Made by a program: the position numbers and the translations under genes
The notes under the pieces: model-generated
Database searches by the model: none
What the model saw: the letters and a program-made list of their open reading frames with translations, nothing else
What the model was told of the DNA's origin: nothing
In this document: positions 45,654 through 60,969 of the stretch, piece after piece
Numbering within the stretch: the stretch's first letter is position 1
Layout of the letters: each line of letters begins with the position of its first letter
Source of the DNA: an uncultured Cohaesibacter sp.
Lineage (GTDB): Bacteria; Pseudomonadota; Alphaproteobacteria; Rhizobiales; Cohaesibacteraceae
Reading direction: 5' to 3'
DNA: 64,000 bases
Assembly (NCBI RefSeq): GCF_963682185.1
Contig: NZ_OY821667.1
Coordinates: 1,470,109 to 1,534,108, forward strand

Positions 45654-47123
45654 TCAGCCCATGAAGGAGGTGATGAGCTTGTCCCACTGGGGCAGATCAT
45701 CCACCAACTGATCCCAGAAAGCCTGATCCCGACGGCTGTCAAAATCCTTCAGCTCAACGCCCTGCTGCTCGACCCAAGTGTAATAACCCAGATTGAAGAT
45801 GCGCTCGCGATCAATGCGGGTAAGCTCTGACACATGATCCACCGAAGCGCCGATGATCTGTGCGCCGAAGGCCTGCGCTGCAACGGTCTTGTCGAAGCGA
45901 TTGCCGAAATATTTCTGCAAGGCTTTCGGCTGCTCGGTGCTATACATATCAGCCCCGTCGGTCGCGATTGTCATGATGACATCATCGGCCCCCAGCTTCT
46001 GATATTTGGCCAGCTTGATGGCGCCAAGCACGTTGGCAATGGAAGACAGCCCCAACGCGGACAGTTGCTCGATCAGCTCCGGCTCAACGCCACGATAATC
46101 TTTCAGATAATCCTGCCCGTCCGGACGGTTGAACACCAGATTGAGCATGTCTGACCCGGCTTCGGAAAGACCGATGACATAGTCGGAGTTCATCACGTTA
46201 TGGATGAGCGGCACATGCTTGTCGCCGATGCCCTGAATATTATGGTCACCATAGCCATTATAAAGCAGGGTTGGGCATTCAAGCGCTTCAACCACGGCGA
46301 TGTCGGCACCATAATGCTGCTTGAGGTGATCACCGGCAGCCAGCGTCCCCGAAGAGCCGGAGGCTGAGACGAAACCGGCCATAGTGAGTGTGCCGTCCCC
46401 GTTGAGGGCATCGAAAATACGACCCAGAGCCGCGCCGGTTACCGCGCGATGCGCTGCATAGTTGGCAAATTCGGCAAACTGGTTGAGGATCACATTGTCC
46501 GGATCCTGACTGAGCTGGTTGCACGCGTCATAGATTTCCTTGACGTTGCTCTCGCAGCCCGGCGTGCGGATGATGTCGTCATTGCTGAGCGTCCAGCTTT
46601 CCAGCCAGTTGAAGCGCTCCTGACTCATCCCCTCCGGAAGAACAGCCACCCCGTGGCATTCCAGAATGCGCGAAATGGCAACCCCACCGCGGCAATAGTT
46701 GCCCGTGGAAGGCCAGACCGCACGCTGGGAATAGGGGTCGAAATTGCCCGACACCAACCGCTGCACGAGGCAGGCATAGGCTGGCAACACCTTATGTGCC
46801 TTGATCATGGGGAAGCGGTTGCCAAGGGCGATGACGATCTTGGCATCAACGCCTGTCAGTTCCTTGGGCAGCACAATGTGATCAGGCACATCGACCAGCC
46901 CCTTGCGCTCGGCGTCATTGTGCCAATGAACGCGGAACAGGTTGCGTGAATCCGCGGCATCGGGATCAACGCTCTTCAGATCCGCCGCCATATCTCCCAG
47001 ATGCGCAACCGGGTCTATCAGCTCGGCAAACAGTGGCAGGCGAATATCGTATCGGCGAAAAGACTCAGCAACCTTCTTGAGGGCTTTCTCGTCGGCGATT
47101 TCAGGTTTGAACACAAATGTCAT
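45654..47123 (-). CDS. PLP-dependent fold-type II enzyme (PALP family), unknown reaction
   Basis: A 489-residue member of the tryptophan-synthase-beta/cysteine-synthase superfamily. 'RFPMIKAHKVLPAYACLVQRL' near residue 105-120 holds the likely Schiff-base lysine, 'WPSTGNYCRGGVAIS' the phosphate/asparagine loop, and 'ASGSSGTLAAGDHLKQHYG' a second glycine-rich loop. It is longer than ordinary cysteine synthases and has a C-terminal extension of about 100 residues. Its start overlaps the D-carbamoylase stop (ATGA), so it is the last gene of the TRAP-DAP lyase-carbamoylase operon. It may act on an amino acid released there, by elimination or beta-replacement. No specific function is recognised. 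Confidence 0.72.
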   Translation of the reverse strand: MTFVFKPEIADEKALKKVAESFRRYDIRLPLFAELIDPVAHLGDMAADLKSVDPDAADSRNLFRVHWHNDAERKGLVDVPDHIVLPKELTGVDAKIVIALGNRFPMIKAHKVLPAYACLVQRLVSGNFDPYSQRAVWPSTGNYCRGGVAISRILECHGVAVLPEGMSQERFNWLESWTLSNDDIIRTPGCESNVKEIYDACNQLSQDPDNVILNQFAEFANYAAHRAVTGAALGRIFDALNGDGTLTMAGFVSASGSSGTLAAGDHLKQHYGADIAVVEALECPTLLYNGYGDHNIQGIGDKHVPLIHNVMNSDYVIGLSEAGSDMLNLVFNRPDGQDYLKDYRGVEPELIEQLSALGLSSIANVLGAIKLAKYQKLGADDVIMTIATDGADMYSTEQPKALQKYFGNRFDKTVAAQAFGAQIIGASVDHVSELTRIDRERIFNLGYYTWVEQQGVELKDFDSRRDQAFWDQLVDDLPQWDKLITSFMG

Positions 47124-48043
47124 GATTTTTTCGGTTCGGTAATCGGGGTGTAGTTTTCGGGTTCACGGTAACGCTGGAAATTGAACACGTTCTTGCGGAT
47201 CTCATCGCAGCGATCCAGATCAGCTTCAAAGAAGACGAGCTCGTCTTCCAGCGTCTTGGCCTGCGCCACGATCTGGCCGGTCGGATCGATGATGCAGGAG
47301 CCACCGATCAGGTCGCAGTCTTCTTCCTTACCTGCTTTGGCCACGCCGACGATCCACATGCCGTTCTGATAGGCACCCGCCTGCATGACGAGTTCATTAT
47401 GGAAGTCCTGCAGATGATCATGTTCAGGCGCTTGCGGATAATGCACCGGCGTGTTGTAGCCGATCATCACCAACTCCGCATCGCGCAGGCCCAGCACGCG
47501 ATAGGTTTCTGGCCAGCGACGGTCATTGCAGATGCACATGCCCATCTTGCCGCCAAAGGCATCAAAGGTCTGGAAGCCCAGATCGCCGCTTTCAAAATAA
47601 CGCCGTTCCAGATGCTGGAAAGGACGCCAATCTTCATATTCACTATGACCGGGCAGATGGACCTTGCGATATTTCCCGACAATCTCGCCGGTCTTGTCGA
47701 CGATGATGGTGGTGTTGAAATGGCGCGTGGTATCGCCTTCCTTGACCAGTTCTGCATAGCCGAGATAGAAGCCCATCTGGTATTTCTTTGCAGCATCAAA
47801 TAGCGGCTGGGTTTCAGCGCTTGGCATCTCCGTTTCGAAGAAGGCATCGATATCGGCCTGATCTTCAAAATACCAGCGCGGAAAGAAGGTGGTCAGCGCC
47901 AGCTCCGGGAAAGCGATCAGCTCAACACCCAGCGCATGTGCCTCTTCCATCAGCTTGAGACAGCGGGCAACAACTTCCGTACGCGTTTCTTTACGCGCGA
48001 TAGGCCCAAGCTGGGCCGCAGCAATTTTCAATGGACGGGACAT
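47120..48043 (-). CDS. N-carbamoyl-D-amino acid hydrolase (nitrilase superfamily)
   Basis: Hydrolyses N-carbamoyl-D-amino acids to D-amino acid, carbon dioxide and ammonia. The 307-residue protein aligns closely by eye with the Agrobacterium D-carbamoylase: Glu47 ('FPELALTTFFPRW'), Lys127 ('GKYRKVHLPGHSEYE') and Cys172 ('CICNDRRWPET') fall at exactly the same numbers as the known catalytic triad. 'EHDHLQDFHNELVMQAGAYQNG' and the C-terminal 'VFNFQRYREPENY' also match. It sits between an L-carbamoylase gene and a PLP-enzyme gene with a 10-base gap and a 4-base overlap. Confidence 0.9.
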   Translation of the reverse strand: MSRPLKIAAAQLGPIARKETRTEVVARCLKLMEEAHALGVELIAFPELALTTFFPRWYFEDQADIDAFFETEMPSAETQPLFDAAKKYQMGFYLGYAELVKEGDTTRHFNTTIIVDKTGEIVGKYRKVHLPGHSEYEDWRPFQHLERRYFESGDLGFQTFDAFGGKMGMCICNDRRWPETYRVLGLRDAELVMIGYNTPVHYPQAPEHDHLQDFHNELVMQAGAYQNGMWIVGVAKAGKEEDCDLIGGSCIIDPTGQIVAQAKTLEDELVFFEADLDRCDEIRKNVFNFQRYREPENYTPITEPKKS

Positions 48044-48053
48044 AGCCTTATCC

Positions 48054-49301
48054 TTATTTTTCTTCAGCTTTAGTCAATGCAGCTTGCAGCAGCACGTTGG
48101 CGCCTGCCTGCAGCTCTTCAGGGGCGGTGTATTCTTCAATATTGTGGCTGATGCCACCTTGGGAGGGCACGAAGACCATTGCGGTTGGACAGTTGGGGGC
48201 AAACATCTGAGCATCATGACCGGCGCCAGAAGGCATCCGGCGCACGGCATAGCCCTGCTCTTTGGCCGTACCAGCAATAAGATCGACCATGGAGCCATCA
48301 AACATCACCGGTTCGAAGCGAGCGAGTTTGCGCGCAGTATAGCTCACGCCTTCAGCCTTGCAGATGGCTTCGATTTCAGCAGCCAGCATGCTTTCGGCTT
48401 GCTGCAGCTTGTCTTCATCGATATTGCGCAGATCCACTGTCATGCGGGCCTTGCGTGCGATCACATTGACCAGATTGGGGTCAAGCTCATTGACACCAAC
48501 AGTCGCGACCTGGCTATCGCCAATTGCACCAGCCACCTTGCGGGCGGCAACGGCAACTGCCGCAGCAGCAAACCCGGCGTCGTGGCGCAAACGCATCGGC
48601 GTTGTGCCGGCATGGTTGGATTCACCCTCGATGACATATTCAGTCCATGAAATGCCCTGAACACCGGTGACAGCCCCGATGAGATCGCCTTCCTCTTCCA
48701 GAACGGGCCCCTGCTCCACATGGATTTCGAAGAAGCAATAAGGATCGATATGGCCCGGATCAGTCTCGCCGGCATAGCCAATGCGCGCCAGTTCCTCGCC
48801 AACAACAAAGCCCTCCGCATCCTTGATAGCCAAGGCTTCATCGAGCGGCAAAGAGCCGCGATCCACCGCGCTGCCCATCATATCAGGCGCAAAGCGCGAG
48901 CCTTCCTCGTTGGTGAAGGCAGCAACCACAATCGGGCGCAGCGGCACATAGCCACTATCCTTGAGCACGGAAACCACTTCCAATCCGGCCAGCACACCAA
49001 GGTTGCCGTCATAAAGACCACCGGTGGCCACCGTATCGATATGGGAACCGATCATGACCGGTGGCAGATCTTCACGACCGGGCAAAACACCCTTGAGGTT
49101 CCCGACCTTGTCGACGGTAACCGTAAGCCCCAGCTCTTTCATCCAGCCGACAACCCGGTCGCGGCCGAGTTTGTCTGTGTCGCTGAGCGCCAACCGACAC
49201 ACGCCGCCGCCCTCAAGCGCGCCATCTTGCCCCAAAGCCATAAGGCGCCCGAGCAAGCGGTCGATATCGATCCGCAGATTGCTGAAAGTCGGGTGTGTCA
49301 T
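48054..49301 (-). CDS. N-carbamoyl-L-amino acid hydrolase / beta-ureidopropionase (M20 family)
   Basis: A 415-residue metal-dependent amidohydrolase. 'MIGSHIDTVATGGLYDGNLGVLAGLE' gives His87 and Asp98 and 'AFTNEEGSRFAPDMMGS' Glu132/Glu133, the dinuclear-metal ligands and catalytic base. 'FFEIHVEQGPVLE' adds a ligand histidine and 'NHAGTTPMRLRHDA' the dimerisation-domain substrate site. Allantoate amidohydrolase and ureidoglycolate-type enzymes share this fold, so N-carbamoyl-L-amino acid, beta-ureidopropionate and allantoate are all candidate substrates. The start overlaps the DAP ammonia-lyase stop as ATGA, tying it to that enzyme. Confidence 0.85.
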   Translation of the reverse strand: MTHPTFSNLRIDIDRLLGRLMALGQDGALEGGGVCRLALSDTDKLGRDRVVGWMKELGLTVTVDKVGNLKGVLPGREDLPPVMIGSHIDTVATGGLYDGNLGVLAGLEVVSVLKDSGYVPLRPIVVAAFTNEEGSRFAPDMMGSAVDRGSLPLDEALAIKDAEGFVVGEELARIGYAGETDPGHIDPYCFFEIHVEQGPVLEEEGDLIGAVTGVQGISWTEYVIEGESNHAGTTPMRLRHDAGFAAAAVAVAARKVAGAIGDSQVATVGVNELDPNLVNVIARKARMTVDLRNIDEDKLQQAESMLAAEIEAICKAEGVSYTARKLARFEPVMFDGSMVDLIAGTAKEQGYAVRRMPSGAGHDAQMFAPNCPTAMVFVPSQGGISHNIEEYTAPEELQAGANVLLQAALTKAEEK

Positions 49302-50494
49302 TGTTCAAGTACCTCACTTGCTGATTTGCCAACAATTGTCTTGTAGGCTCCCGGATCCGTGTCCCCTTCGCTGTTGACTACGAAGATGCGGCTATCAGGT
49401 CCGAGCCCCATTTGTTTGCGTAACGCATCGTCCTGCGCGGCGGCAACAAGGCCAGCCAGACCGGAGATGCCCGTTTCACCAGCCACCACGGGGCGATCAT
49501 CACCACCGCGTTCGGCCAGATAACGCATCATCACCGGCACGGCGCCATCATTGAGCGTCACCATGAAATCGGCGCCGGTCTTGAGCACTGGCCAGGCAAT
49601 GAGCGATACCTCACCGCAAGAAAGTCCGGCCATGGCCGAGTCGATATCGCCGGTCACGGGCACCGGCTTGCCTGCAACAAGACTTTCATACCAACAGGCG
49701 CATTGTTCCGGCTCCACCAGCGTGGTCACCGGACGCTTGTCGCCATAAGCCTGCCAGAAACGGGCCGCGCTGGCCGATGCCATGCCGCCAACGCCAGCTT
49801 GCAGAAAAATATGCGTGACGGGCGGCTCATCCTTGAGCTGTTCCAGCGCCTCATCGACCATCATCATGTAGCCTTGGGTTACATCACGCGGCGCCGTCAC
49901 CGTCTCGCCATCCGATGTATCGGGAATAACGAACCAGCCCTGTTCCTTGGCCGTCACGCCAGCCAGACGCACGGCATCATCAAACGACCCATCCACTTCG
50001 CGGATTTCTGCCCCATAGGCGGCAATGGCATCCTTGCGCTGTTGGGTGACCGATGAGCAGACAAAAATCACACAACGACACCCAAACATCTGCGCGCCCC
50101 AAGCCACCGAGCGGCCGTGATTGCCATCTGTCGCGGCGGTAACCGTCAACCCAGAAACCCGCGCCTTCATGTCTGGAGAAGCAAGATCGGGAGCCACCTC
50201 GCCCGTTTCCTCGGCCAGATGGCGGCTCAAGGCACGACTGACAGCAAAGGCACCTCCCAAAGGCTTGAAGCTGCCCAACCCGAAGCGGACGGATTCATCC
50301 TTGAAACAGATTTTGCCAACATTGAGCTCGGAGGCCAGATCGGACAGTTCGCGGATTGGCGACGGGGAATAGCCCGGCCAGCCGCCAATCGTGCGGCGCG
50401 CGATATCCATGCCATCCTTTTCGAAAGGAAGAGAAGGAAGCGTCCGGGACGCAAGGGGATTCCGCGCCGCTCGTTCAAGAGAAATCTTCATCAT
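49298..50494 (-). CDS. 2,3-Diaminopropionate ammonia-lyase (YgeX-like)
   Basis: Converts D- or L-2,3-diaminopropionate to pyruvate and two ammonia. The 398-residue fold-type II PLP enzyme matches E. coli YgeX: 'KDESVRFGLGSFKPLGGAF' with the cofactor lysine at residue 77, 'TAATDGNHGRSVAWGAQMFG' (Asp123, the equivalent of a proposed catalytic Asp), 'THIFLQAGVGGMASA', 'MAGLSCGEVSLIAW' and 'GETGISGLAGL'. YgeX itself is about 400 residues. It lies between a TRAP transporter and two carbamoylases in one operon, so diaminopropionate is probably produced inside the cell from a carbamoylated precursor. Confidence 0.9.
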   Translation of the reverse strand: MMKISLERAARNPLASRTLPSLPFEKDGMDIARRTIGGWPGYSPSPIRELSDLASELNVGKICFKDESVRFGLGSFKPLGGAFAVSRALSRHLAEETGEVAPDLASPDMKARVSGLTVTAATDGNHGRSVAWGAQMFGCRCVIFVCSSVTQQRKDAIAAYGAEIREVDGSFDDAVRLAGVTAKEQGWFVIPDTSDGETVTAPRDVTQGYMMMVDEALEQLKDEPPVTHIFLQAGVGGMASASAARFWQAYGDKRPVTTLVEPEQCACWYESLVAGKPVPVTGDIDSAMAGLSCGEVSLIAWPVLKTGADFMVTLNDGAVPVMMRYLAERGGDDRPVVAGETGISGLAGLVAAAQDDALRKQMGLGPDSRIFVVNSEGDTDPGAYKTIVGKSASEVLEQ

Positions 50495-50599
50495 TATCTT
50501 TTCTTATTCTGGTTTGATCGGCTCTTTTGATCCTCGCCGTGCCATTGATGCGCATCATCCAAGGCAAGAAACAGAAAAACCGCTCACAAGGACGGAAAG

Positions 50600-50625
50600 G
50601 GCGGCGAACATGAATGCCCGCCGCC
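50600..50625 (-). terminator. Hairpin between dctP and the DAP ammonia-lyase gene
   Basis: GGCGGC (50600-50605) pairs with GCCGCC (50620-50625), with further GGGC/GCCC alternatives inside. It lies 18 bases beyond the dctP stop. It probably dampens read-through from the transporter genes into the enzyme genes. Confidence 0.5.
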
Positions 50626-50642
50626 AAGGTGTAATCGTGCCA

Positions 50643-51683
50643 TTATTTATATTTGTCGATATCAGCCATCAGGGCATTGAGCATGTCCGTGCCCTCGGCG
50701 CCGAATTTCTCTTCGATCAACTTGCGAACAGCTGGCTGCGCAATGGCGGCGAATTTCTCGGCTTCTGCCGGGCTAACCGCATTGATTTCCATTTTCTGGG
50801 CCAATTTCGGCAGCCCCTTGTCAGATGCTTCGATGATACGGGAGATACCGCGACCGGCATTGGTGGCCACTTCAGACGCCCAATCAACAATAGCTTTATG
50901 CTCAGGCTTGAGGCCCTCATAGAACTCGCCATTCATGAACCAGACATATGGGGTGATGACATGGTTGGTGATGGAGAGATATTTTTGCACTTCGTCAAAT
51001 TTGGCAAAGGCAATGACGGGAATCGGGTTCATTTCGCCGTCGGCAACACCGGTCTGAAGCGCAGTGTAAACCTCGGCCCAAGGCAGAGGCGTTGCCTGTG
51101 CGCCAAGCGAATTGACCATGGCTTGATGGGTCGGCAGGGTCATGGTGCGGATGCGAAGACCATCCATGTCTTCCACGGTCTTGATCGGACGCTTGGAGTT
51201 GGTGAAAGCAAAGAAGCCACCACTATCCAGCATGGCAAGCGTGTGCAGACCGGTTTTTGCATCCATGTCGGCTGCGAATTTCTTGCCGAAATCACTTTCC
51301 AGCGACATCACTTTGTCGGAAACATAGATATTGGGGAAGGCGAACGGAATATCGAACACACCAACCAGAGGATAATGCTGGGCAACACCACCAGCAGAGG
51401 AAATGCAGGATTCTACGATGCCATCACGCACCTGCTGGATCACTTCATTATCCTTGCCAAGCTGGCCATTGGGGAAGAGTTTTACTTCGATTTCGCCGTT
51501 TGACGCAGTTTCAACCAACGACTTGAAGACAGCCGTCATCGCACCAGAATGGCTTTCTGTCGGGTCTGCCGGGTTCAGATGACCGATGCGAATGGTTACA
51601 TCAGCGGCCAAGGCCGTTCCGGCCAAAACAGTTGCTGCGATGGTTCCCAACACCACAGACTTAACGGAATTCATGAGTTTCAT
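50643..51683 (-). CDS. TRAP transporter substrate-binding protein (DctP type)
   Basis: The 346-residue periplasmic protein has a Sec signal ('VVLGTIAATVLAGTALAADV') and the DctP fold. 'DGLRIRTMTLPTHQAMVNSLGAQATPLPWAEVYTAL' spans residues about 165-200 in parts and includes the ligand-carboxylate Arg; 'GVADGEMNPIPVI' and 'HVITPYVWFMNGEFY' follow. It should bind a carboxylate such as a ureido acid or amino acid derivative that feeds the carboxy-amide hydrolases downstream. It is the third gene of a dctQ-dctM-dctP set. Confidence 0.88.
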   Translation of the reverse strand: MKLMNSVKSVVLGTIAATVLAGTALAADVTIRIGHLNPADPTESHSGAMTAVFKSLVETASNGEIEVKLFPNGQLGKDNEVIQQVRDGIVESCISSAGGVAQHYPLVGVFDIPFAFPNIYVSDKVMSLESDFGKKFAADMDAKTGLHTLAMLDSGGFFAFTNSKRPIKTVEDMDGLRIRTMTLPTHQAMVNSLGAQATPLPWAEVYTALQTGVADGEMNPIPVIAFAKFDEVQKYLSITNHVITPYVWFMNGEFYEGLKPEHKAIVDWASEVATNAGRGISRIIEASDKGLPKLAQKMEINAVSPAEAEKFAAIAQPAVRKLIEEKFGAEGTDMLNALMADIDKYK

Positions 51684-51719
51684 GTGATTGCTCCATTTGA
51701 ATTGTATCAGTGCTCTGGA

Positions 51720-53000
51720 TTACAGCCCCAATAGCCTTGGCACGAACAGGGTCATGTCCTCCCAAAATGCGACCAACATCAGGATCGCAATCTCTGCCAG
51801 GAGAAAAGGCCAAAGGGATTTGGTGATATTTTCTATTTTTTCTTTGGTAACCGATGCGAGCACAAACAGGCACGCACCGACTGGAGGCGTCATGAGTGAG
51901 ATATTCAGAGCCAAAATGATCATGATCCCTGCATGAACCGGGTTCATCCCGATGCTCTGAGTAAGAGGCACCAAAACCGGCGCCAGGATAATGAGTGTTG
52001 CATTGATGTCCATGAACAGGCCGATGAACAGCAGCAACAGAAGGATCATGCCGACAATCACCTGCGGATTATCGCTGACCGAAAGGAAGAAAGTGGCGAT
52101 TGCCTGCGGAATCTGGTTGAAGGTGAGCCACCACCCCAGAATGGAGGCTGACGCGATGATCAGAAAGATGATCCCTGTGATGCGGGTCGTTCTGACGATC
52201 ATCTCATAAAGATCTTTGAAGGTAAGAGCCCGATAGATCACCCCGCCCACGAACAAGGCATAGGCAACCGCAATGGAAGCTGCTTCGGTCGGCGTTGCAA
52301 TGCCCCCCAGAATGGAGCCAAGAATGAAGACCGGCAGCACCAGAGCCAGAATGCTCTCCCGGAAGGCACTGAAGATCGCCAGAAGGCTGGGGCGCTTCTT
52401 CGACTTTGGCAGATTAAGATTCTCGCCCATGGCCGCGATCACCGCCATGCAGATAAGGCAAATAAGCAGCCCTGGCAGAATGCCTGCCGCAAACAGCCCG
52501 GCGATGGAAACTCCCATGATCGAGCCATAGATCACCGCGAGCGTCGAAGGAGGAATAGTCGGGCCAATGATGGACCCCGCCGCCGTAACTGCACAGGCAA
52601 AGGGTTTGGAATAGCCCTGCTTGACCATGGCAGGCACCAGCGTATTGCCAAAGGCGGCAGCGTCAGCCGTGGCAGCACCTGTCAAACCGGCAAACATAAC
52701 CGAGGCCACCATGTTGGAATGAGCCATACCACCACGCATCCAGCCCACCAACGCATCAGCAAACTTCACCAGATTGTTGGTAATGCCGGAGCGGTTCATG
52801 ATCTCACCGGCCAGAATAAAGAAAGGCATGGCCAGAAACGGAAACAGATCCAGCCCGGCAAACATCCGGTCCGGCGCCATGGAGAGGAACTTGCCACCCC
52901 CCATATCCATGATGCCAACCATTCCGGCAACGCCCAGCACAAAGCCGACCGGCATGCCAATCGCCAACAGCCCAAAGAAGGTGACAGCAACCCAAATCAT
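51720..53000 (-). CDS. TRAP transporter large permease (DctM type)
   Basis: A 426-residue, twelve-segment membrane protein. 'MFAGLTGAATADAAAFGNTLVPAM', 'AAGSIIGPTIPPSTLAVIYG' and 'SLMTPPVGACLFVLASVT' are family motifs. It starts 2 bases after the dctQ stop and is separated from dctP by 36 bases. The gene order Q-M-P differs from the P-Q-M order of the other TRAP system at 20677-23696. Confidence 0.9.
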   Translation of the reverse strand: MIWVAVTFFGLLAIGMPVGFVLGVAGMVGIMDMGGGKFLSMAPDRMFAGLDLFPFLAMPFFILAGEIMNRSGITNNLVKFADALVGWMRGGMAHSNMVASVMFAGLTGAATADAAAFGNTLVPAMVKQGYSKPFACAVTAAGSIIGPTIPPSTLAVIYGSIMGVSIAGLFAAGILPGLLICLICMAVIAAMGENLNLPKSKKRPSLLAIFSAFRESILALVLPVFILGSILGGIATPTEAASIAVAYALFVGGVIYRALTFKDLYEMIVRTTRITGIIFLIIASASILGWWLTFNQIPQAIATFFLSVSDNPQVIVGMILLLLLFIGLFMDINATLIILAPVLVPLTQSIGMNPVHAGIMIILALNISLMTPPVGACLFVLASVTKEKIENITKSLWPFLLAEIAILMLVAFWEDMTLFVPRLLGL

Positions 53001-53521: not shown

Positions 53522-53641
53522 GCATCCACTCCAGATAGCCTGCCAACAGACCGAGACTGAAACAGATGTAACAGAAAGTCAATATTGATTGATACTCAAG
53601 TTTCAAATATTGTAGGCAGAAGCAAAAAAGCCGAGGCAAAA

Positions 53642-54490
53642 ATGAACGACAGCAGAGCCAAATCGATCGAAGTCCGCATTCATGCGGAATATGATCAACT
53701 CCCCGAATCCGAGCGCAAACTCGCAGACGTCATCCTCGACTCTCCGGGCGACCTCAGCTCCTATACGGCAACAGAGTTGACCTCCCTTGCTGGCGTCTCG
53801 AAAGCCGCAGGAACCCGCCTGTTTCGGCGTCTCGGCTTTGCCAATTTCGAAGAAGCCAAACTGCTCGCCCGCGACCGCACCCATTGGGGGTCGCCGCTCT
53901 ATCTGGAACGCAAGAGCCGGAAGAATGTCATTCCGCTTTCCGACTACCTGAAGGAGGAGGTCAGCGTTCTTGAGAAAAGCCTCATGCGCCTCAACCCGGA
54001 AGACATTGATGCGGTCTGTGAAAAAATCCTCGCGGCGCGGCGCATTTATCTGCTCGGCTACAGAAACAGCAACATGCTCGCCAACTATCTGCGCTGGCAG
54101 CTGTTGCAATTCCGTGGCGACGTTCAACTGATGCCCACGGGCGGAGAAACGGTTGGCGAATATATCGGTGATTTCCTGCCCGATGATCTGCTCATCGTAT
54201 TTGCCCTGCGACGCCGACCGGTCCGCCTTGAAGCCATCATGAAGGCCAGCAAGGAAAAGCGGATCCCCATTCTGCTGTTCATCGACCCCACCGCACGCGG
54301 CCAACCCGGATTGGCCGACTGGACATTCACAACCCATGTGGAAACCAGCACCACATTCGACAGCCTGTCAGCGGCGCTCTCGGTTGCCCGTTACATTGCA
54401 ATATCTTCGCTCAACCGGGCAGGAACGCGCGGGCGGGCTCATCTGGAGCGCATCGAACGCGAGCATGAAGCATTGGGAGAATTCGAATAG
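53642..54490 (+). CDS. RpiR/MurR-family regulator, first of a tandem pair
   Basis: A 282-residue regulator. The N-terminal HTH_6 domain ('LPESERKLADVILDSPGDLSSYTA', 'ELTSLAGVSKAAGTRLFRRLGF') covers residues 15-75, and a C-terminal SIS domain follows ('RRIYLLGYRNSNMLANYLRWQL', 'DLLIVFALRRRPVRLEAIMKAS'). SIS domains in this family bind sugar phosphates or other phosphorylated ligands, but here a non-sugar ligand is possible. The ATG at 53642 has GAGG at 5-base spacing; 53585 has none. It is divergent from the TRAP-DAP lyase operon. It and the next gene share 'HWGSPLYL'/'DWGSPLYE' after the DNA-binding domain, so they are duplicates. Confidence 0.87.
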   Translation: MNDSRAKSIEVRIHAEYDQLPESERKLADVILDSPGDLSSYTATELTSLAGVSKAAGTRLFRRLGFANFEEAKLLARDRTHWGSPLYLERKSRKNVIPLSDYLKEEVSVLEKSLMRLNPEDIDAVCEKILAARRIYLLGYRNSNMLANYLRWQLLQFRGDVQLMPTGGETVGEYIGDFLPDDLLIVFALRRRPVRLEAIMKASKEKRIPILLFIDPTARGQPGLADWTFTTHVETSTTFDSLSAALSVARYIAISSLNRAGTRGRAHLERIEREHEALGEFE

Positions 54491-54611
54491 CCAAACCATA
54501 ACCAGCGCTTCCTCGCCGGTCTGCCCTTTTCAGTCCCTCCGATATTCCCGAAATTGGCGCTTTCATTACCAACCCAAAAAGTGGTAGAAATGAAGCGTTA
54601 ATATGAAATTT

Positions 54612-54627
54612 TGAAAATTAATTTTCA
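54612..54627. promoter_or_regulatory. Candidate RpiR operator, site 1
   Basis: TGAAAATTAATTTTCA is a perfect 16-base palindrome 20 bases upstream of the second rpiR start. It has the TGAAA-N6-TTTCA shape. Upstream of it, near 54558-54597, lies an imperfect long inverted repeat (CGCTTTCATTACCA with TGGTAGAAATGAAGCG), probably the end of the first rpiR transcript. Confidence 0.6.
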
Positions 54628-54647
54628 TTCTCGGGTGATGATGCCAT

Positions 54648-55538
54648 ATGAGCGAGCAAGATAAGCCAAAAGCAATTGACGTCAGAATTTCGGAAATCTA
54701 CGACCAGCTAACCAGCTCGGAGCGTCGATTGGCTGACGTTGTAATCGAGTCGCAAAGCAATCTGGCAAGCTTCACCGCCGGTGAACTGGCAGACAGGGCA
54801 CGCATATCCAAGGCCACCGCAGCGCGATTCTTCAAACGCCTTGGCTACGCCAATTACAACGAAGCCCGTGTCATGAATCGCCAAGCGGAGGACTGGGGCT
54901 CTCCCCTATATGAACTCACGGGCATCGGCACCAAACGCCTCTCTCAGGGTGACTTCGGCCTGCATATTGCGCAGGATTTGCAAAACCTTACCCGAACTGC
55001 CGAGATGCTCGACACAGACGCTCTGGCACAAGCCATCAGCATGCTGACCAACGCCAAACGCATCTGGTCTCTTGGCTTCCGCAACTCCATGGCTTTGGCC
55101 ACTTATGCCCGGGCTTTGCTTATCAACATCAAACCCGATGTGCGCCTCATTCCCAGTGCGGGCATGTCCTTTGGTGAAGAACTGGCTGGCATGAACAAGG
55201 CGGAGGACACCTTCCTCATTTTCGGTTTTCGCCGCCGTCCGGCGCAACTGCGCGACGTGATGGAAGCGATTCATGATGCCGGAGCACCCAGCATTCTGAT
55301 CACCGACATGACCGCCGGTCGCACCTCGCAACTGGCCACCCTCACCTTGCGCTGTCACTGCCGCGGGCACACCATGTTTGACAGCTACGCCACCCCCATG
55401 AGCCTGATCAATTATATCTGCTCGGGTGTCAGCCAATCCCTTGGTGAAGAGTCTGTTAAGCGCCTCACTGAAATTGAAGCCCTGCATGGCAAATTGGATC
55501 AGCTCGGCGCGCCGCTGATCGGAAAAGACAGTGCATAA
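54648..55538 (+). CDS. RpiR/MurR-family regulator, second of a tandem pair
   Basis: A 296-residue regulator with the same layout as its neighbour: HTH_6 domain ('TSSERRLADVVIESQSNLASFTA', 'ELADRARISKATAARFFKRLGYANYNEA') and SIS domain ('AKRIWSLGFRNSMALATYARALL', 'DTFLIFGFRRRPAQLRDVMEAI'). 'FRRRPAQLRDVM' mirrors 'LRRRPVRLEAIM' of the first copy. It directly precedes the polyamine-type ABC/dihydropyrimidinase operon, with two more palindromic sites in between. Having two paralogs suggests one controls each arm, or that they form heteromers. Confidence 0.87.
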   Translation: MSEQDKPKAIDVRISEIYDQLTSSERRLADVVIESQSNLASFTAGELADRARISKATAARFFKRLGYANYNEARVMNRQAEDWGSPLYELTGIGTKRLSQGDFGLHIAQDLQNLTRTAEMLDTDALAQAISMLTNAKRIWSLGFRNSMALATYARALLINIKPDVRLIPSAGMSFGEELAGMNKAEDTFLIFGFRRRPAQLRDVMEAIHDAGAPSILITDMTAGRTSQLATLTLRCHCRGHTMFDSYATPMSLINYICSGVSQSLGEESVKRLTEIEALHGKLDQLGAPLIGKDSA

Positions 55539-55560
55539 AAGTTAGTCAATTGCTCAAAAA

Positions 55561-55606
55561 TGAAACAATATTTTCATATTGATCTTTTTATGAAAAAGTA
55601 TTTTAA
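55561..55606. promoter_or_regulatory. Candidate RpiR operators, sites 2 and 3
   Basis: TGAAACAATATTTTCA (55561-55576) and TGAAAAAGTATTTTAA (55591-55606) are imperfect copies of the palindrome at 54612. They are 30 bases apart, close to three helical turns, and lie about 85-130 bases before the ABC binding-protein start. They are likely to control the ABC/dihydropyrimidinase operon. Confidence 0.58.
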
Positions 55607-55689
55607 TCAGAGCGATCGCAAACAACGACGATCGACCTCACCAGAGCAAGCAACGCTCCCTTATGGAGCGACTTGAAAGGGAACATTTT

Positions 55690-56772
55690 ATGGCTTTTCA
55701 CATCAATCGCCGCGATCTGTTGAAGACCGTGGCAGCGGGCGCTGCATTGGGTGCGCTGTCTCCAATCAATCGCGCCATGGCTGCGACCGAAGTTTCATGG
55801 ATGACCTGGGAAAACCTGGCCAAGCCGGAGTATCTCAAGGCCTTCCTCGACGCCAACGCAGGCATCGACATTGCAAAAACCTTCATTGGCACCGACGATG
55901 AACAATTCGCCAAGCTGCGCGCTGGCGGTGCAGATTCCGTTGATCTGATCACTCCGGGCCTCGACAAGGTCGAATATTACGTTGAATCCGGCCTGCTGCA
56001 GCCGATCGATTTCGACAAGGTCACCAACGGCAAGCTCCTTTATGACGCTTTCAAATCTTCTCCGCTGGGCAAGAAAGATGGCAAAACCTACGGCATTCCA
56101 TTCTACTGGGGCATCAACCCGGTGGTTTACCGCGCCGACCTGATGGATGAAGAACCCGATTGGTCCGTCTTCTTTGAAGGCGACAAATACAAGGGCAAGC
56201 TGGCCATGCGCGACTATGCGCTGGAAGGCATCATGATTGCCGCCATGTATCTGGGCATTCCGCGCGAAGAAATGTTCGTCATGGACGACAAGCAGCTGGC
56301 TGAAATCAAGAAAGCCCTGATGGCGCAGAAGAAACTGCTTCGCACCTACTGGAATTCCATTTCCGATCTGACCAACCTGTTTGCTTCCGGCGAAGTCGTC
56401 TGCGCCTTCTCCTGGGTACCGCCTTACTATGACCTGAAGGCCCGCGGCCTCGACATGGGCATGGCAAAACCGAAACAGGGTGTCATTGGCTGGTGCGATA
56501 CGCTGGCAGTTCCTGCTGGTGTTGAGGGCGAAAAACTCGACGCTGTCTTCAAGCTGGTCAACTATCTGCTCGGCCCGGATTATGGTAAGGAATTGGCCGT
56601 TGGCGGTCCTTACGCTCAGAGCACATCCTCTGCCCGTGACCTGATCTCTGATGAGCAGAAAGACAAGATCTTCATCAGCGATCTCAGCATCATGGACTCT
56701 TTCGTCTGGAAGCAGAATCCACCTCGTTACAATGAGTGGGTTGCCCTCTGGAACGAAGTCAAAGCCAGCTAA
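55690..56772 (+). CDS. ABC transporter substrate-binding protein (PotD/PotF-like)
   Basis: The 360-residue periplasmic protein starts with a twin-arginine-type signal ('MAFHINRRDLLKTVAAGAALGALSP') and has the PotD-like type II fold: 'VSWMTWENLAKPEYLKAF', 'VDLITPGLDKVEYYVESGLLQPID', 'YGIPFYWGINPVVYRADL' and 'VVCAFSWVPPYYDLKARGL'. Polyamine-type systems bind cationic or amide-rich small molecules. With a dihydropyrimidinase gene in the same operon, a basic cyclic ureide or amino-bearing amide is plausible. AAAGGGA precedes the ATG at 55690. Confidence 0.87.
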   Translation: MAFHINRRDLLKTVAAGAALGALSPINRAMAATEVSWMTWENLAKPEYLKAFLDANAGIDIAKTFIGTDDEQFAKLRAGGADSVDLITPGLDKVEYYVESGLLQPIDFDKVTNGKLLYDAFKSSPLGKKDGKTYGIPFYWGINPVVYRADLMDEEPDWSVFFEGDKYKGKLAMRDYALEGIMIAAMYLGIPREEMFVMDDKQLAEIKKALMAQKKLLRTYWNSISDLTNLFASGEVVCAFSWVPPYYDLKARGLDMGMAKPKQGVIGWCDTLAVPAGVEGEKLDAVFKLVNYLLGPDYGKELAVGGPYAQSTSSARDLISDEQKDKIFISDLSIMDSFVWKQNPPRYNEWVALWNEVKAS

Positions 56773-56807
56773 AACTCTCTCTTTCCGCATCCTGCAAGGC
56801 ATCTGAA

Positions 56808-57884
56808 ATGAATAAGAAAACCCCTCCTCTTTTAACGGGGATCGCGGTTCACAAGGAATATGGTTCCGTACACGCTGTTCGCGGCGTAGATTTCACTATT
56901 GAATCAAACACCTACGTGACACTTCTAGGGCCTTCGGGATGCGGAAAGACATCCCTTCTGCGCATGATCGGAGGATTTGAAGACATCTCCTCCGGCGTCA
57001 TCGAACTGGATGGGCACTCGCTGGCCGGGACCCCGGCCAACCAACGACCCATCAACACCGTTTTTCAAAGCTACGCCCTCTTCCCGCATCTTTCAGTCAA
57101 GGAAAATGTTGCCTTCGGCCTTGCCTATCGAGCCATGTCAAAGAGCGAGATGAATGAGAAAGCTGAAGCGGCGCTCGCCATGGTTCAGATGCAGGAAATG
57201 GCAGACCGTCGCCCACGCCAGCTCTCCGGCGGACAACAGCAGCGCGTGGCACTGGCGCGCGCGATCGCCAATGAACCGCGCATCCTGTTGTTGGACGAGC
57301 CTCTCTCGGCCCTTGACCGACGCATGCGCAAAGACATGCAGATCGAATTGAAGGACCTGCAGCGGCGACTGGGCACCACCTTCCTGCATGTAACACACGA
57401 TCAGGAAGAAGCCTTCGCGCTCTCCGATCATATCATCGTCATGAATGATGGCGCCATTGAGCAGCAGGGCACGCCAACGGAAATCTATCGTCATCCTGCA
57501 AGCGCCTATGTGGCTGACTTCATCGGCGGCGCCAATCTGATCGAAGGCAAGATCACCGCCATTGAACCGGGCCAGACAGCTACCATAGAAACCGCCGTTG
57601 GCTCCTTCACCGCTCCGGCCGCTCCGCATTTGAAGGCGGGCGACAAGGCCGCCCTCGTGTTACGCCCCGAGCTCATGACGCTTTCCTCTGGCGGCGGCAT
57701 TCCGGCAAAGGTGACCCACACTGTGTTCCGTGGAGCTGAATGGCTGGTGGAAACCCGCCTTGCCGATGGCACAGCGTTGGACATGATGCTTCAGGATATC
57801 ACTCCGCCGGAAACCGGCAGTGATGTTGCCCTCGCCTTTGATCTCGACCGCGCATGGATCACCGCTTCAAAAGGAACGGAATAG
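56808..57884 (+). CDS. ABC transporter ATP-binding protein (PotA-like)
   Basis: A 358-residue ATPase. Walker A 'GPSGCGKTS', Q-loop 'FQSYALFPHLSVKEN', signature 'LSGGQQQRVALARAIA', Walker B 'ILLLDEP' and 'THDQEEAFAL' are intact, and the C-terminus holds a TOBE domain ('ALVLRPELMTLSSGG'). PotA-type features include 'RQLSGGQQQRVALARAI'. The ATG at 56808 is chosen because homology starts there; it is 35 bases after the binding-protein stop. Confidence 0.92.
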   Translation: MNKKTPPLLTGIAVHKEYGSVHAVRGVDFTIESNTYVTLLGPSGCGKTSLLRMIGGFEDISSGVIELDGHSLAGTPANQRPINTVFQSYALFPHLSVKENVAFGLAYRAMSKSEMNEKAEAALAMVQMQEMADRRPRQLSGGQQQRVALARAIANEPRILLLDEPLSALDRRMRKDMQIELKDLQRRLGTTFLHVTHDQEEAFALSDHIIVMNDGAIEQQGTPTEIYRHPASAYVADFIGGANLIEGKITAIEPGQTATIETAVGSFTAPAAPHLKAGDKAALVLRPELMTLSSGGGIPAKVTHTVFRGAEWLVETRLADGTALDMMLQDITPPETGSDVALAFDLDRAWITASKGTE

Positions 57885-57886
57885 CC

Positions 57887-58756
57887 ATGAAACGCATCAC
57901 TATCGGCAACGCGCTCTCGGTTCCGGTATTTGCCGCAGTTGCAGCCCTATGCATCGCACCGTTGGCGATCCTCTTTGCCTATTCCTTCTTTTCTGTCAGC
58001 TTCGTAGCCATCATCAAGGATCCGACCTTCAAGAATTACGCCCGCATCGCAGGCAGCAGCACCTATCGCTGGCTGATCTTCAAGGCGTTCCTCTCCGGAG
58101 CCGGCATTGCCGCCCTAACCGCCATCATCGGATATCCGGTGGCATGGTTCATTGCCAAGCGCGTTACCATTTACAAGTCCGCCCTGCTGACGCTGCTGCT
58201 GGTTCCGCTTTATACCGGCGACTTGGTGCGCATCTTTGCCTGGCGCGTTCTGCTCGGCGCGGAAGGCGTGCTCAACAGCCTCCTGATGTGGATCGGGCTG
58301 GTCGACAAACCGATTGACGCCCTGCTCTTCTCGCCGCTCGCCACCCATATAGTACTGGCTTACAATTATCTGCCCTTCATGGTCATCGGCCTCTGGCTTG
58401 CCTTCGAGGCGCTGGATGACCGCCTGCTGGAAGCAGCTCAGGATCTGGGCGCCGGATCGCGCAGCACCTTTGTGCGGGTCACCTTGCCGCTCACCATGCC
58501 CGGCCTCATCGCTGGCGCGCTTATGGTATTTGTCATGGTGGTGGGCGATTATCTGACGCCGCAGCTGGTTGGCGGCGCCTCCGGCATTACCATCATCAGC
58601 GCCATCAACGATCTGTTCGGCACCGCCTTCGACTGGCCGCTCGGCTCGGCCATCGCATGGACCATGCTGGCGATTCTGGCCCTCTTCTTTGCGCTCGCCG
58701 CCATCGTGATCAGCCGTTCCACCCTGGGCAAGGCATTGGCAGGAGGGGAAGCATGA
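57887..58756 (+). CDS. ABC transporter permease (PotB-like)
   Basis: The 289-residue subunit has about six hydrophobic segments starting 'FAAVAALCIAPLAILFAYSFF'. The EAA loop is 'LLEAAQDLGAGSRSTFVRVTLP' near residues 190-211. It begins 2 bases after the ATPase stop with AAGGA upstream, and its stop overlaps the PotC-like start (ATGA). Confidence 0.9.
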   Translation: MKRITIGNALSVPVFAAVAALCIAPLAILFAYSFFSVSFVAIIKDPTFKNYARIAGSSTYRWLIFKAFLSGAGIAALTAIIGYPVAWFIAKRVTIYKSALLTLLLVPLYTGDLVRIFAWRVLLGAEGVLNSLLMWIGLVDKPIDALLFSPLATHIVLAYNYLPFMVIGLWLAFEALDDRLLEAAQDLGAGSRSTFVRVTLPLTMPGLIAGALMVFVMVVGDYLTPQLVGGASGITIISAINDLFGTAFDWPLGSAIAWTMLAILALFFALAAIVISRSTLGKALAGGEA

Positions 58757-59535
58757 TCTCTCGACAACAAAATATCCTCGCCTATAGCTGGATCTGGATT
58801 GTCTATATCCTGATGTATCTGCCCATCGCCGTGATTGCGATTTTCTCTTTCAACTCATCGGAGATCATCGCCTTTCCGCTGCAAGGCTTCACCACCGATT
58901 GGTATGCACAGGCCCTGACAGACGGGCGCCTGCTCGGCGGGTTGAAACTGACATTCCTCGTAGCTATCCCTACAGCCCTCTTTTCCACCATCCTTGGTGC
59001 CATGGCAGCCCTTGCGCTGACCCGCTACCCGATGCGCTATCGCTTCTTGCTGCTCGTCTTCGTGTTGATGCCCTTTCTCATCCCGAAGGTCATTCTTGCG
59101 GTCGCGCAATTGATCCTGCTGGCAGACCTTGGCATCGGGCGCAGCCTCTGGACGATCATCGCAGGCCAGACCATCGTCATTCTGCCCTTTACCACGCTGG
59201 TCAATGCGTCGGTTCTGATGCGCATCGACAACCGACTGGAAGAAGCCGCTTTTGACCTTGGTGCGAGCCATTTCTCGGCCTTCAAGCGGGTCACTCTGCC
59301 GCTGATGAAAAACGGCCTGATGGCCTCATGGTTCATCGCCTTTGTGCTGTCCTCGGCGGAGTATGTGCTCACCTCCTTCCTCAGTGGACGCGAGCAGCCG
59401 CTGTCCATTCTGGTGGCATCGGATTTTCGCTTCAATGTCTCTCCAGCGCTGGATTCCATCGCGCTGATGCTGGTGCTTGCCAACATCGCACTCATCGGGT
59501 TTGGCGAGTTCATACGCCGGAGATCTCAGAAATAA
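58753..59535 (+). CDS. ABC transporter permease (PotC-like)
   Basis: The 260-residue subunit has six hydrophobic segments ('IWIVYILMYLPIAVIAIFSF', 'LTFLVAIPTALFSTILGAMAAL', 'SIALMLVLANIALIGFGEFI'). The EAA loop is 'LEEAAFDLGASHFSAFKRVTLPL'-like near 165-186. It completes the potD-A-B-C-like transporter. The next gene, a dihydropyrimidinase, starts 18 bases on. Confidence 0.9.
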   Translation: MISRQQNILAYSWIWIVYILMYLPIAVIAIFSFNSSEIIAFPLQGFTTDWYAQALTDGRLLGGLKLTFLVAIPTALFSTILGAMAALALTRYPMRYRFLLLVFVLMPFLIPKVILAVAQLILLADLGIGRSLWTIIAGQTIVILPFTTLVNASVLMRIDNRLEEAAFDLGASHFSAFKRVTLPLMKNGLMASWFIAFVLSSAEYVLTSFLSGREQPLSILVASDFRFNVSPALDSIALMLVLANIALIGFGEFIRRRSQK

Positions 59536-59553
59536 CCTGGAAAGGACAAGCTC

Positions 59554-60969
59554 ATGGCTGATTTTGACCTGCTGATCCGTGGCGGCACATGCGTTACGGC
59601 GGCAGACACCTTTTCTGCCGATATCGCCATCAAGGATGGTGTGATCGTTGCAACCGGCAAGGATCTTGGCTCCGCCGACAAGGAAATCGACGCATCCGGT
59701 CTGTTGGTCATGCCCGGCGGTATCGACAGCCACGTCCATCTGGCCCAGCCCTCTGCGCCCGGCACCCCGCAAATGGTGGATGGTTTTGAAACCGGCACCC
59801 GCTCTGCCATCGCTGGCGGCACCACCACCGTCATTCCCTTTGCCCAACAGCCACGCGGCGCTGGCCTGAGAGAAACCGTGGAGGACTATCATTCCCGCGC
59901 CCGAGGGCAGGCCTATTGCGATTATGGCTTTCACCTGATCATCACCGATCCGACCGCGCAAGTTCTGGGTCAGGAACTGCCTGCCCTCGTAGCCGACGGG
60001 TACACTTCCTTCAAGGTCTTCATGACCTATGATGACATGGTGCTCAATGACCGCGAGTTGCTGGAAGTCTTCGACTGCGCCAAGGATTGCAAGGCGCTGG
60101 TCATGGTCCATGCCGAAGGCTACGACGCCATCCGCTACATGACCGAAAAGCTGGAACGCGAAGGCAAGACAGCGCCCTACTATCACGGTGTCTCGCGCCC
60201 GCAGATCGTTGAGCGGGAAGCGGCCCATCGCGCCATCAGTCACGCCCAGCTTCTCGATGTCCCCATCATGATCGTGCATGTCTCCGGTCGCGAAGCCATG
60301 GAACAAATCAGATGGGCGCAGCAAAAGGGCATCAAGATCTATGGTGAAACCTGCACCCAATATATCGCCCTCACGCAGGACGATATGAAGGGCTTCAACA
60401 TGGATGATAGCGGCAGCAAATATGTCTGCTCGCCACCACCACGCGATCACGACAGCTGGGACGCCATCTGGGAAGGCATCCGCAGCGGCGTCTTCCAAAC
60501 CTTCTCATCCGACCACTGCCCCTTCTTCTACGAGGGACCACAAGGCAAGATGACCGGCAAGGCCAAGACGTCCTTCCGCTGGGTACCAAACGGCTTGCCG
60601 GGCGTAGAAAACCGCATGCAGATCTTCTATTCCGAAGGCGTTGGCAAGGGCCGTATCACGCTTAATGAGTTCGTCGCCCTCACCTCGACCAACCACGCCA
60701 AGATGTATGGCCTCTACCCCAAAAAGGGCTCCATTGCTCCGGGCTTTGATGCTGACATCGTTTTGTGGGACCCGAACCGCGAGGAAACCATTACGCAAGC
60801 TGGCATGCACCACGCCGCCGACTATACCCCCTACGAGGGCCACAAGGTCAAAGGCTGGCCGGTCATGACACTGGTGCGCGGCAAAGTCGCTTGTGAAGAG
60901 GGCAAGATCACCGGCTCGGTCGGTGATGGCCAATTCCTCAAGCGCGACTACTCCGCCTTTGTTGACTGA
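59554..60969 (+). CDS. Dihydropyrimidinase / D-hydantoinase
   Basis: Opens the ring of dihydropyrimidines or 5-substituted hydantoins to N-carbamoyl amino acids. The 471-residue amidohydrolase has all expected ligands: His60 and His62 ('GGIDSHVHLAQP'), the carboxylated Lys154 ('YTSFKVFMTYDD'), His186 ('MVHAEG'), His242 ('MIVHVSGREA') and Asp320 ('FSSDHCPFFYEG'). 'GIDSHVHL' instead of the common 'GIDPHTHM' and 'LAQPS' after it suggest altered substrate choice. It is the last gene of the ABC operon; its product would suit the two carbamoylases of the opposite arm. Related allantoinases are less similar. Confidence 0.9.
   Translation: MADFDLLIRGGTCVTAADTFSADIAIKDGVIVATGKDLGSADKEIDASGLLVMPGGIDSHVHLAQPSAPGTPQMVDGFETGTRSAIAGGTTTVIPFAQQPRGAGLRETVEDYHSRARGQAYCDYGFHLIITDPTAQVLGQELPALVADGYTSFKVFMTYDDMVLNDRELLEVFDCAKDCKALVMVHAEGYDAIRYMTEKLEREGKTAPYYHGVSRPQIVEREAAHRAISHAQLLDVPIMIVHVSGREAMEQIRWAQQKGIKIYGETCTQYIALTQDDMKGFNMDDSGSKYVCSPPPRDHDSWDAIWEGIRSGVFQTFSSDHCPFFYEGPQGKMTGKAKTSFRWVPNGLPGVENRMQIFYSEGVGKGRITLNEFVALTSTNHAKMYGLYPKKGSIAPGFDADIVLWDPNREETITQAGMHHAADYTPYEGHKVKGWPVMTLVRGKVACEEGKITGSVGDGQFLKRDYSAFVD

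Follow-up and report, generated by a model that had tools for sequence, protein, structure and literature searches.

We identified a 15-kb locus that may encode a hydrolytic route from ureido compounds to pyruvate in a 64,000-nucleotide stretch of an uncultured Cohaesibacter sp. genome (contig NZ_OY821667.1, positions 1,470,109 to 1,534,108; this whole stretch is called the window, and positions are counted from its first letter). The locus (45654-60969) consists of two arms on opposite strands. Outward from the divergent centre, the minus-strand arm encodes the TRAP transporter subunits DctQ, DctM and DctP, a 2,3-diaminopropionate ammonia-lyase (DAL), an M20-family carbamoylase, an N-carbamoyl-D-amino acid amidohydrolase (D-carbamoylase) and a CysK-like pyridoxal phosphate (PLP) enzyme that we refer to as PALP2. 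The plus-strand arm encodes the regulators RpiR1 and RpiR2, a PotDABC-like ABC transporter (together 55663-59535) and a dihydropyrimidinase (Table 1). We consider it probable that this locus takes up ureido compounds and breaks them down by hydrolysis to pyruvate and ammonia, in a version of the reductive uric acid pathway's lower half that uses different enzymes. This reading builds on observed gene content, kinship, catalytic residues, conserved gene order and co-location with upper-half genes elsewhere. The most likely substrates, judging from gene context, are 2,3-diureidopropionate and the cyclic compound that precedes it.

The reductive uric acid pathway was reconstituted in a 2025 paper. 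Uric acid is converted to yanthine, YgfK performs a reductive dearomatization and SsnA gives ureidomethylhydantoin (UMH) (PMC12507026; step names also in PMC12990295). HyuA then opens the ring, YgeW or UacY gives albizziin, and YgeY and YgeX lead to pyruvate; E. coli HyuA cleaves both UMH and 5-ureidodihydrouracil, and UacY of C. difficile is a D-aminoacylase-like protein that gives albizziin (PMC12507026). An R configuration has been proposed, and a commentary lists the cleavage order and the configuration as open (PMC12990295).

Separate lineages carry D-carbamoylase genes in physical linkage with uric acid route genes; in Pleomorphomonas and SAR324 this linkage includes the M20 and DAL genes. 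In two Pleomorphomonas species (L127 and L120), RpiR2 is encoded divergently from a series of genes for DAL, M20, D-carbamoylase, a YgfK-like protein, xanthine dehydrogenase (XDH) and an SsnA-like protein. The enzyme genes of L127 are on one strand, and its XDH scores above the TIGR03311 cut-off (885.5 bits, cut-off 830); gene order in L120 was compared by BLAST only. Because the Pleomorphomonas module runs into YgfK-, XDH- and SsnA-like genes, the best-fitting substrate is a ureido-substituted compound from that route. In a Rhodoferax metagenome-assembled genome (MAG; L083), the D-carbamoylase gene lies within a uricolytic cluster like that of E. coli, between a purine permease gene (xanthine-permease family) and homologues of yqeA, hyuA and ygeW (76%, 69% and 83% identical to those of E. 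coli; ygfK, 71%). A SAR324 MAG encodes M20 and D-carbamoylase beside a YqeA-related kinase, YgeW (743 bits), YgeY (490 bits), DAL and PALP2, and homologues of ssnA, ygfK and xdh occur together on another of its contigs. Two features of the pathway, a HyuA-type cyclic amidohydrolase and a YgeX-type DAL, are encoded in the window itself, and the lower-half candidates appear linked to upper-half genes in Pleomorphomonas.

The window genome is predicted to encode the lower half only, because SsnA, YgeW and YgeY did not score over cut-off and the catalytic domain of YgfK was not found among the matches listed. SsnA, the published marker, was over the TIGR03314 cut-off in 0 of 41 genomes (own included) and in 1 of 14 control genomes. 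Among the 18 genomes of the genus, none was over the cut-offs for YgfK (TIGR03315), YgeW (TIGR03316; best 37 bits, cut-off 500) or YgeY (TIGR03526; best 106 bits, cut-off 321.5), each of which was passed by 1 of 14 controls. All YgfK matches among those listed begin at profile position 422 or beyond, outside the N-terminal part. As regards the alternative reductase UacX, two matches to PF01180 are over cut-off in the window genome, one of them of the dihydroorotate dehydrogenase family. The presence of the whole reductive uric acid pathway in this genome was rejected on these results. Likenesses to YgeW, YgeY and YqeA were also sought among 20 window proteins and were not seen, which agrees with an earlier interpretation made from the letters alone (the sequence-only reading) that this is not simply the E. 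coli locus.

Contigs were scanned with a D-carbamoylase alignment alone, and the best 80 of at least 577 confirmed stretches were taken as 80 loci with fetched flanks of up to 10 kb; this set may lack records close to the window. Within the flanks we identified DAL in 42 loci (at >100 bits; 41 at >120 bits), M20 in 39, both in 31, TRAP DctM in 25, PALP2 in 10 and dihydropyrimidinase in 5. Hosts of the DAL- or M20-linked loci are Alpha-, Beta- and Gammaproteobacteria and one SAR324 MAG. The module is also present in Halomonas, Vibrio and Salipiger, which are of marine or halophilic habit. Open reading frames in the fetched loci were picked by script, so that some starts are too early and some neighbours were missed (D-carbamoylase in L120, M20 in L099); gene places of seven loci were re-set by tblastn. 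On a D-carbamoylase tree of 83 rows, the label for DAL or M20 linkage (51 rows) needs 10 changes, compared with a mean of 25.6 in 500 shuffles, a contrast that is inflated by near-copies and comes from a quick tree. Across 150 genomes, D-carbamoylase matches of at least 57% identity lie within 10 kb of DAL in 21 of 30 cases and those below 57% in 0 of 29, with the line drawn after the list was seen, 8 of the 21 coming from the window genome and its congeners, and genes on separate draft contigs counted as not near.

A DAL search of the 150 genomes, own included, gave 53 matches, and the stretches around 20 were examined. The order RpiR1-DctQMP-DAL-M20-D-carbamoylase is kept in 12 of the 20, from the genus and from other families of the order; among these, three outside the genus (L050, L051 and L053) lack PALP2 and one congener (L043) lacks the TRAP genes. 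In two further stretches (L046, L047), truncated at contig ends, part of the module is visible. D-carbamoylase adjoins DAL in L052 and L054, where no M20 or TRAP relative is present, and DAL has other surroundings in L055 to L058 (with distant TRAP relatives in L056). Chance does not account for this order, since it is found again in further genera, in other families and in other classes. The idea that an open or cyclic ureido compound is degraded via diaminopropionate gains from the recurrence of DAL, M20 and D-carbamoylase as one module. Overall, the pathway proposed in the sequence-only reading appears largely right, and gene context supports it strongly.

That reading had also treated the two arms as one unit, and this part did not hold. 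Enzymes of the minus arm are encoded in 8 of the 18 genomes of the genus, own included, and 2 of these 8 lack a dihydropyrimidinase ortholog genome-wide. In stretches fetched from other families, too, the plus arm is missing beside the minus arm. A single inseparable unit was rejected on this gene content. The ortholog (at least 92% identical) was found in 6 of the 18 genomes, own included, in all six beside the minus arm and never in the genus without the minus-arm enzymes; the ABC-dihydropyrimidinase arm adjoins the module in 5 of the 7 fetched congeners that hold it. The arms therefore do separate, as the earlier reading had named as a test against itself, but not freely: the minus arm occurs without the plus arm and the reverse was not seen. 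Such one-way separability is expected if the product of the plus-arm enzyme flows into the minus arm. Since the minus arm occurs without the plus arm, a route from an open ureido acid would be complete without dihydropyrimidinase.

Other arrangements occur further afield. In Martelella (L084) and Seohaeicola (L135), PotDABC, dihydropyrimidinase (82% and 72% identical, respectively) and RpiR2 are encoded divergently from DAL-M20-D-carbamoylase, and this arm occupies the place upstream of those genes where the TRAP genes would be. In a Phyllobacteriaceae MAG (L099), the genes for DAL, M20, D-carbamoylase and a dihydropyrimidinase (55%) are on one strand, and an RpiR2 relative (67%) is encoded upstream on the other. 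Given these arrangements, the TRAP and ABC transporters look like alternative doors to one pathway, the former presumably for an acid and the latter presumably for a cyclic ureide. The nearest solved relatives of the two binding proteins are mostly of the TRAP and polyamine types and gave no substrate hint.

In the route that we propose, the TRAP transporter would import an open ureido acid, probably 2,3-diureidopropionate (or 2-amino-3-ureidopropionate, albizziine). D-carbamoylase would remove the 2-ureido group of the D (R) form and the M20 hydrolase the 3-ureido group, and DAL would split the resulting 2,3-diaminopropionate into pyruvate and two ammonia. In the fewer strains with the plus arm, the Pot-type ABC transporter would import a cyclic precursor, 5-ureidomethylhydantoin or 5-ureidodihydrouracil, for opening to diureidopropionate by dihydropyrimidinase. 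Two plain hydrolases would then replace YgeW/YqeA (or UacY) and YgeY, and the purine-reducing upper half would be absent. From gene context we infer the substrate, the ureido group assigned to each enzyme, the stereochemistry, the transporter cargo and the ligands of the regulators. The free-standing lower half probably serves to scavenge compounds released by other microbes or plants.

The eleven best solved relatives of the window's carbon-nitrogen hydrolase are all D-carbamoylases (phmmer, E 1.7e-126 to 1.5e-115). All 83 aligned sequences have Glu47, Lys127 and Cys172, the Glu-Lys-Cys triad named in PMC11503299; by its sequence, this protein is a real D-carbamoylase. The M20 enzyme is over two NCBIfam subfamily models named allantoate amidohydrolase and under the cut-off of the AllC (allantoate deiminase) equivalog (277.1 bits, cut-off 597.75); its nearest solved relatives include L-carbamoylases and N-carbamoyl-beta-alanine amidohydrolase. 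DAL is over TIGR01747 (280.7 bits, cut-off 274) and under the stricter TIGR03528 (313.2, cut-off 532). It aligns with the E. coli DAL structure 4d9g (E 1.1e-68), is 37.6% identical to E. coli YgeX and keeps the residues at E. coli positions K77, D120 and D189, which we take to be catalytic. A literature search on these residues returned nothing relevant among the matches listed. Dihydropyrimidinase is also over PRK13404 (703.2 bits, cut-off 647), matches the D-hydantoinase structure 1nfg (E 9.8e-132), is 38.7% identical to E. coli HyuA, and scores 263, 259 and 216 bits against three allantoinase models with cut-offs of 631, 358 and 688. That it is simply the pyrimidine enzyme of the cell was rejected, as another dihydropyrimidinase gene sits near an MMSDH-family gene. 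That other gene (L158, G000:C1:4948000-4967900) also lies near cofG, cofH and cofD for coenzyme F420; F420-linked reductases have been proposed for yanthine reduction in Chloroflexota (PMC12507026).

Candidate operators were found in both arms. The gap between DctQ and RpiR1, which are divergent, holds the element GTCAATATTGATTGA. It is kept with at most 2 changes in the corresponding stretches of 8 relatives. With no more than 1 mismatch allowed, the 5.39 Mb genome has a single match; with 3 allowed, the window has 1 match, against 1.59 expected. Because the listed TTG start of RpiR1 (53585) overlaps this conserved element, it is probably too early and the true start further in; in some relatives (L042, L045) the frame begins about 13 codons later (overlap region 53585-53625). 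The inverted repeat TTGAAAATTAATTTTCA is the only site of its kind in the window at up to 3 mismatches, with both strands read. Upstream of RpiR2 and PotD the repeats are of the type TGAAAAT..ATTTTCA, other than the GTCAATATTGATTGA element. A shared operator of both arms was sought in these repeats, which look different and have only a vague common ATATTGAT stretch. RpiR1 stays with the minus arm in relatives, and RpiR2 stays with PotDABC-dihydropyrimidinase in Martelella and Seohaeicola. As the putative operator repeats of the two arms differ, they suggest that each arm answers to its own RpiR.

Every gene class named in the sequence-only reading (dihydropyrimidinase, both carbamoylases, DAL, the RpiR pair and two transporters) was recovered in place as an open reading frame by family profile or phmmer matches. 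PALP2, which that reading did not mention, is additional, and its gene overlaps the D-carbamoylase gene by 4 bases. The AlphaFold2 model of PALP2 (mean pLDDT 88) shows a fold-II PLP protein extended at both termini; Foldseek matches are to CysK/CBS (TM by target about 0.8) and, lower down, SbnA. H110-K111 and S139-T140-G141-N142 are invariant in 11 aligned relatives. A cysteine synthase assignment was rejected, with 72.9 bits (cut-off 351) and 28.9 bits (cut-off 394) against the cysK/cysM equivalogs. PALP2 was found in 2 of 398 genomes of the phylum, own included (E up to 1e-60); the second match is at a contig end, and its 10 kb stretch has no other match to the 32 query proteins, so that this wider survey gave no clue to a role. 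Six of the ten PALP2-containing D-carbamoylase loci show no DAL, with two of them cut close by (L063, L069) and four uncut (L080, L100, L103, L110). M20, D-carbamoylase and PALP2 occur together in these four, with no DAL seen (L110, 10001-14948). A threonine-synthase-like PLP gene (under family cut-offs) adjoins PALP2 in L080 and L110, and L110 additionally carries an L-serine ammonia-lyase gene. Genes for D-carbamoylase, PALP2 and an allantoicase-family protein (TIGR02961, 435.9 bits) are consecutive at L063:211-3695. As a guess, PALP2 may replace or work beside DAL through beta-elimination, perhaps by removing a beta-substituent from an intermediate.

Several observations weigh against the uric acid interpretation. 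PALP2 has no step in the proposed scheme, and the allantoicase-family gene beside it in L063 means that an allantoate-type substrate fits too. Neither DAL nor M20 was seen in the flanks of 30 of the 80 loci, including all 13 from Bradyrhizobium (contig ends truncate some of the remainder), which shows that D-carbamoylase also occurs in other settings; of the 42 DAL loci, 11 showed no M20. The share of 42 in 80 overstates that of DAL among all D-carbamoylases, because the query alignment came from DAL-linked ones. A second D-carbamoylase of the window genome (G000:C1:3673757-3674671) is 53% identical and belongs to a group not found near DAL, and a second dihydropyrimidinase (TIGR02033, 595 bits) is encoded elsewhere in the genome, near the MMSDH-family dehydrogenase gene. 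In Pleomorphomonas L127, the YgfK-like protein (398.6 bits, profile 4-398, the N-terminal part) and the SsnA-like protein (253.0 bits) are both under their family cut-offs, and no HyuA homologue was seen in the fetched Pleomorphomonas stretches. The Rhodoferax locus shows only a shortened ygeX reading frame, and the L077, L083, L099 and SAR324 contigs are from MAGs.

Other explanations were considered. If the D- and L-carbamoylases worked in parallel on enantiomers in general scavenging of hydantoins and N-carbamoyl amino acids, with DAL merely deaminating one product, the D-carbamoylase loci without DAL and the hydantoin racemase gene in L074 would fit. D-hydantoinase/D-carbamoylase pairs are, moreover, broad industrial enzymes. 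General scavenging would have no need for a dedicated diaminopropionate lyase, however, and DAL is a partner in 42 of the 80 loci, with only one part of the D-carbamoylases among relatives involved (21 of 30, compared with 0 of 29); we regard this explanation as unlikely. We give similarly little credence to a route for plant amino acids, in which TRAP, one carbamoylase and DAL would process albizziine or a related plant N-acyl diaminopropionate with no purines involved. Albizziine occurs in plant seeds (PMC12990295), the minus arm lacks a dihydropyrimidinase ortholog in 2 of the 8 genomes that hold it, and the window genome has no SsnA over cut-off and no YgfK catalytic domain among the matches listed. 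Yet one L-ureido amino acid would not need two carbamoylases of different type, and the module also occurs in Halomonas, Vibrio and Salipiger and adjoins YgfK, XDH and SsnA homologues.

Considerably less probable is a route through allantoin and allantoate, in which dihydropyrimidinase would be an allantoinase, the M20 enzyme an allantoate amidohydrolase, and ureidoglycine-like products would go to the PLP enzymes. The names of the two M20 subfamily models and the allantoicase gene adjoining PALP2 in L063 point that way, but M20 is far under the AllC equivalog (277 vs 598), dihydropyrimidinase scores 703 with its own subfamily and is under the cut-offs of all three allantoinase models, and DAL would have no place. 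A paper on ureidoglycine carbamoyltransferase was also considered and concerns another route (PMC4016543). A chance juxtaposition of two unrelated arms is very improbable. Each arm has its own transporter, regulator and operator-like repeats, and the minus arm often occurs without the plus arm, but all six genus genomes with the dihydropyrimidinase ortholog carry it beside the minus arm, and the association recurs in other arrangements in Martelella, Seohaeicola and L099.

Table 1. Features of the locus, with window positions.
Feature	Position	Strand	Evidence
PALP2, CysK/CBS-fold PLP enzyme with N- and C-terminal extensions	45654..47123	-	PF00291 32.7 bits, cut-off 35
N-carbamoyl-D-amino acid amidohydrolase (D-carbamoylase)	47120..48043	-	phmmer 1fo6, E 1.7e-126
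M20 hydantoinase/carbamoylase-family amidohydrolase	48054..49301	-	TIGR01879 406.3 bits, cut-off 204
2,3-diaminopropionate ammonia-lyase DAL (YgeX-like)	49298..50494	-	NF006058 429.5 bits, cut-off 276
TRAP solute-binding protein DctP	50643..51683	-	PF03480 253.7 bits
TRAP large permease DctM	51720..53000	-	PF06808 376.5 bits
TRAP small permease DctQ	53003..53521	-	PF04290 95.8 bits
Operator-like element GTCAATATTGATTGA, between divergent DctQ and RpiR1	53578..53592	+	conserved in relatives
RpiR1, putative regulator of TRAP arm	53585..54490	+	PF01418 43.2, PF01380 32.9 bits
Inverted repeat TTGAAAATTAATTTTCA before RpiR2, candidate operator of ABC arm	54611..54627	+	partly conserved in congeners
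RpiR2, putative regulator of ABC/dihydropyrimidinase arm	54648..55538	+	PF01418 40.3, PF01380 35.1 bits
PotD-like solute-binding protein	55663..56772	+	PF13416 97.1 bits; 1pot E 1e-24
PotA-like ABC ATPase	56736..57884	+	profile matches
PotB-like permease	57854..58756	+	profile matches
PotC-like permease	58657..59535	+	profile matches
Dihydropyrimidinase / D-hydantoinase	59554..60969	+	TIGR02033 544.4 bits, cut-off 393

Also present in the window are genes for NagB-II-like and NagA-like proteins, a ROK kinase and CutC (41702-45590), which converge on the module from the opposite side. The module has the same neighbours in 4 congeners; the stretches fetched from 3 others did not show them. A PF04199 cyclase-family gene (61745-62692) follows dihydropyrimidinase; it is kept in 4 of 5 congeners examined, was not found in the fifth, and may be part of the plus arm. 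Among the surveyed loci, a Roseibium locus (L074) has a hydantoin-racemase-family gene following D-carbamoylase and an amidase-signature gene (PRK08310; L074:7553-8758) directly before DAL, with no M20 seen in the locus. A Hydantoinase_A (HyuA/oxoprolinase) family gene (L075:13538-15703) is near another DAL-D-carbamoylase locus, again with no M20 seen.

D-carbamoylase is, to our knowledge, an industrial enzyme without a settled physiological role. A literature search on its natural role gave no result, and among the papers listed from the one collection searched, none joins D-carbamoylase with the reductive uric acid pathway. We tentatively propose, at a confidence somewhat short of even, that the D-carbamoylases in this clade evolved as enzymes that remove the 2-ureido group from (R)-2,3-diureidopropionate, as part of a Proteobacteria-wide free-standing lower half that is fed by leaked intermediates of uric-acid-reducing microbes and that, in Pleomorphomonas, is joined to an alphaproteobacterial uric acid operon. 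If true, D-carbamoylase would gain a natural role, and cleavage of the 2-ureido group by a D-specific enzyme would speak for the D (R) configuration. A D-selective enzyme class in a variant of the pathway would make cleavage order and stereochemistry testable in a simple hydrolytic system that does without molybdenum or carbamoyl phosphate chemistry. Such a variant also suggests that intermediates of uric acid breakdown support cross-feeding beyond the anaerobic gut.

In comparison with known systems, the same lower chemistry is expected as for the E. coli cluster xdhD-ygfM-ygfK-ssnA-hyuA-ygeW-yqeA-ygeY-ygeX, namely HyuA-type opening, two ureido cleavages and a YgeX-type lyase. Unlike that cluster, the window has a D-carbamoylase and a carbamoylase-family M20 enzyme instead of YgeW, YqeA and YgeY, together with TRAP and Pot-type transporters and RpiR regulators. 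The C. difficile variant uses the D-aminoacylase-like UacY, whereas the window enzyme is a D-carbamoylase of the carbon-nitrogen hydrolase family. Reductive pyrimidine degradation (dihydropyrimidinase, beta-ureidopropionase) involves the same reaction types, but the window genome keeps a separate dihydropyrimidinase gene near the MMSDH-family gene. The Agrobacterium-type D-hydantoinase/D-carbamoylase system, an industrial route, resembles the locus in its close D-carbamoylase (1fo6) and in the nearby D-hydantoinase-like dihydropyrimidinase (1nfg). The window differs from it in linking D-carbamoylase with a diaminopropionate lyase and a second carbamoylase, and this linkage points to a specific substrate.

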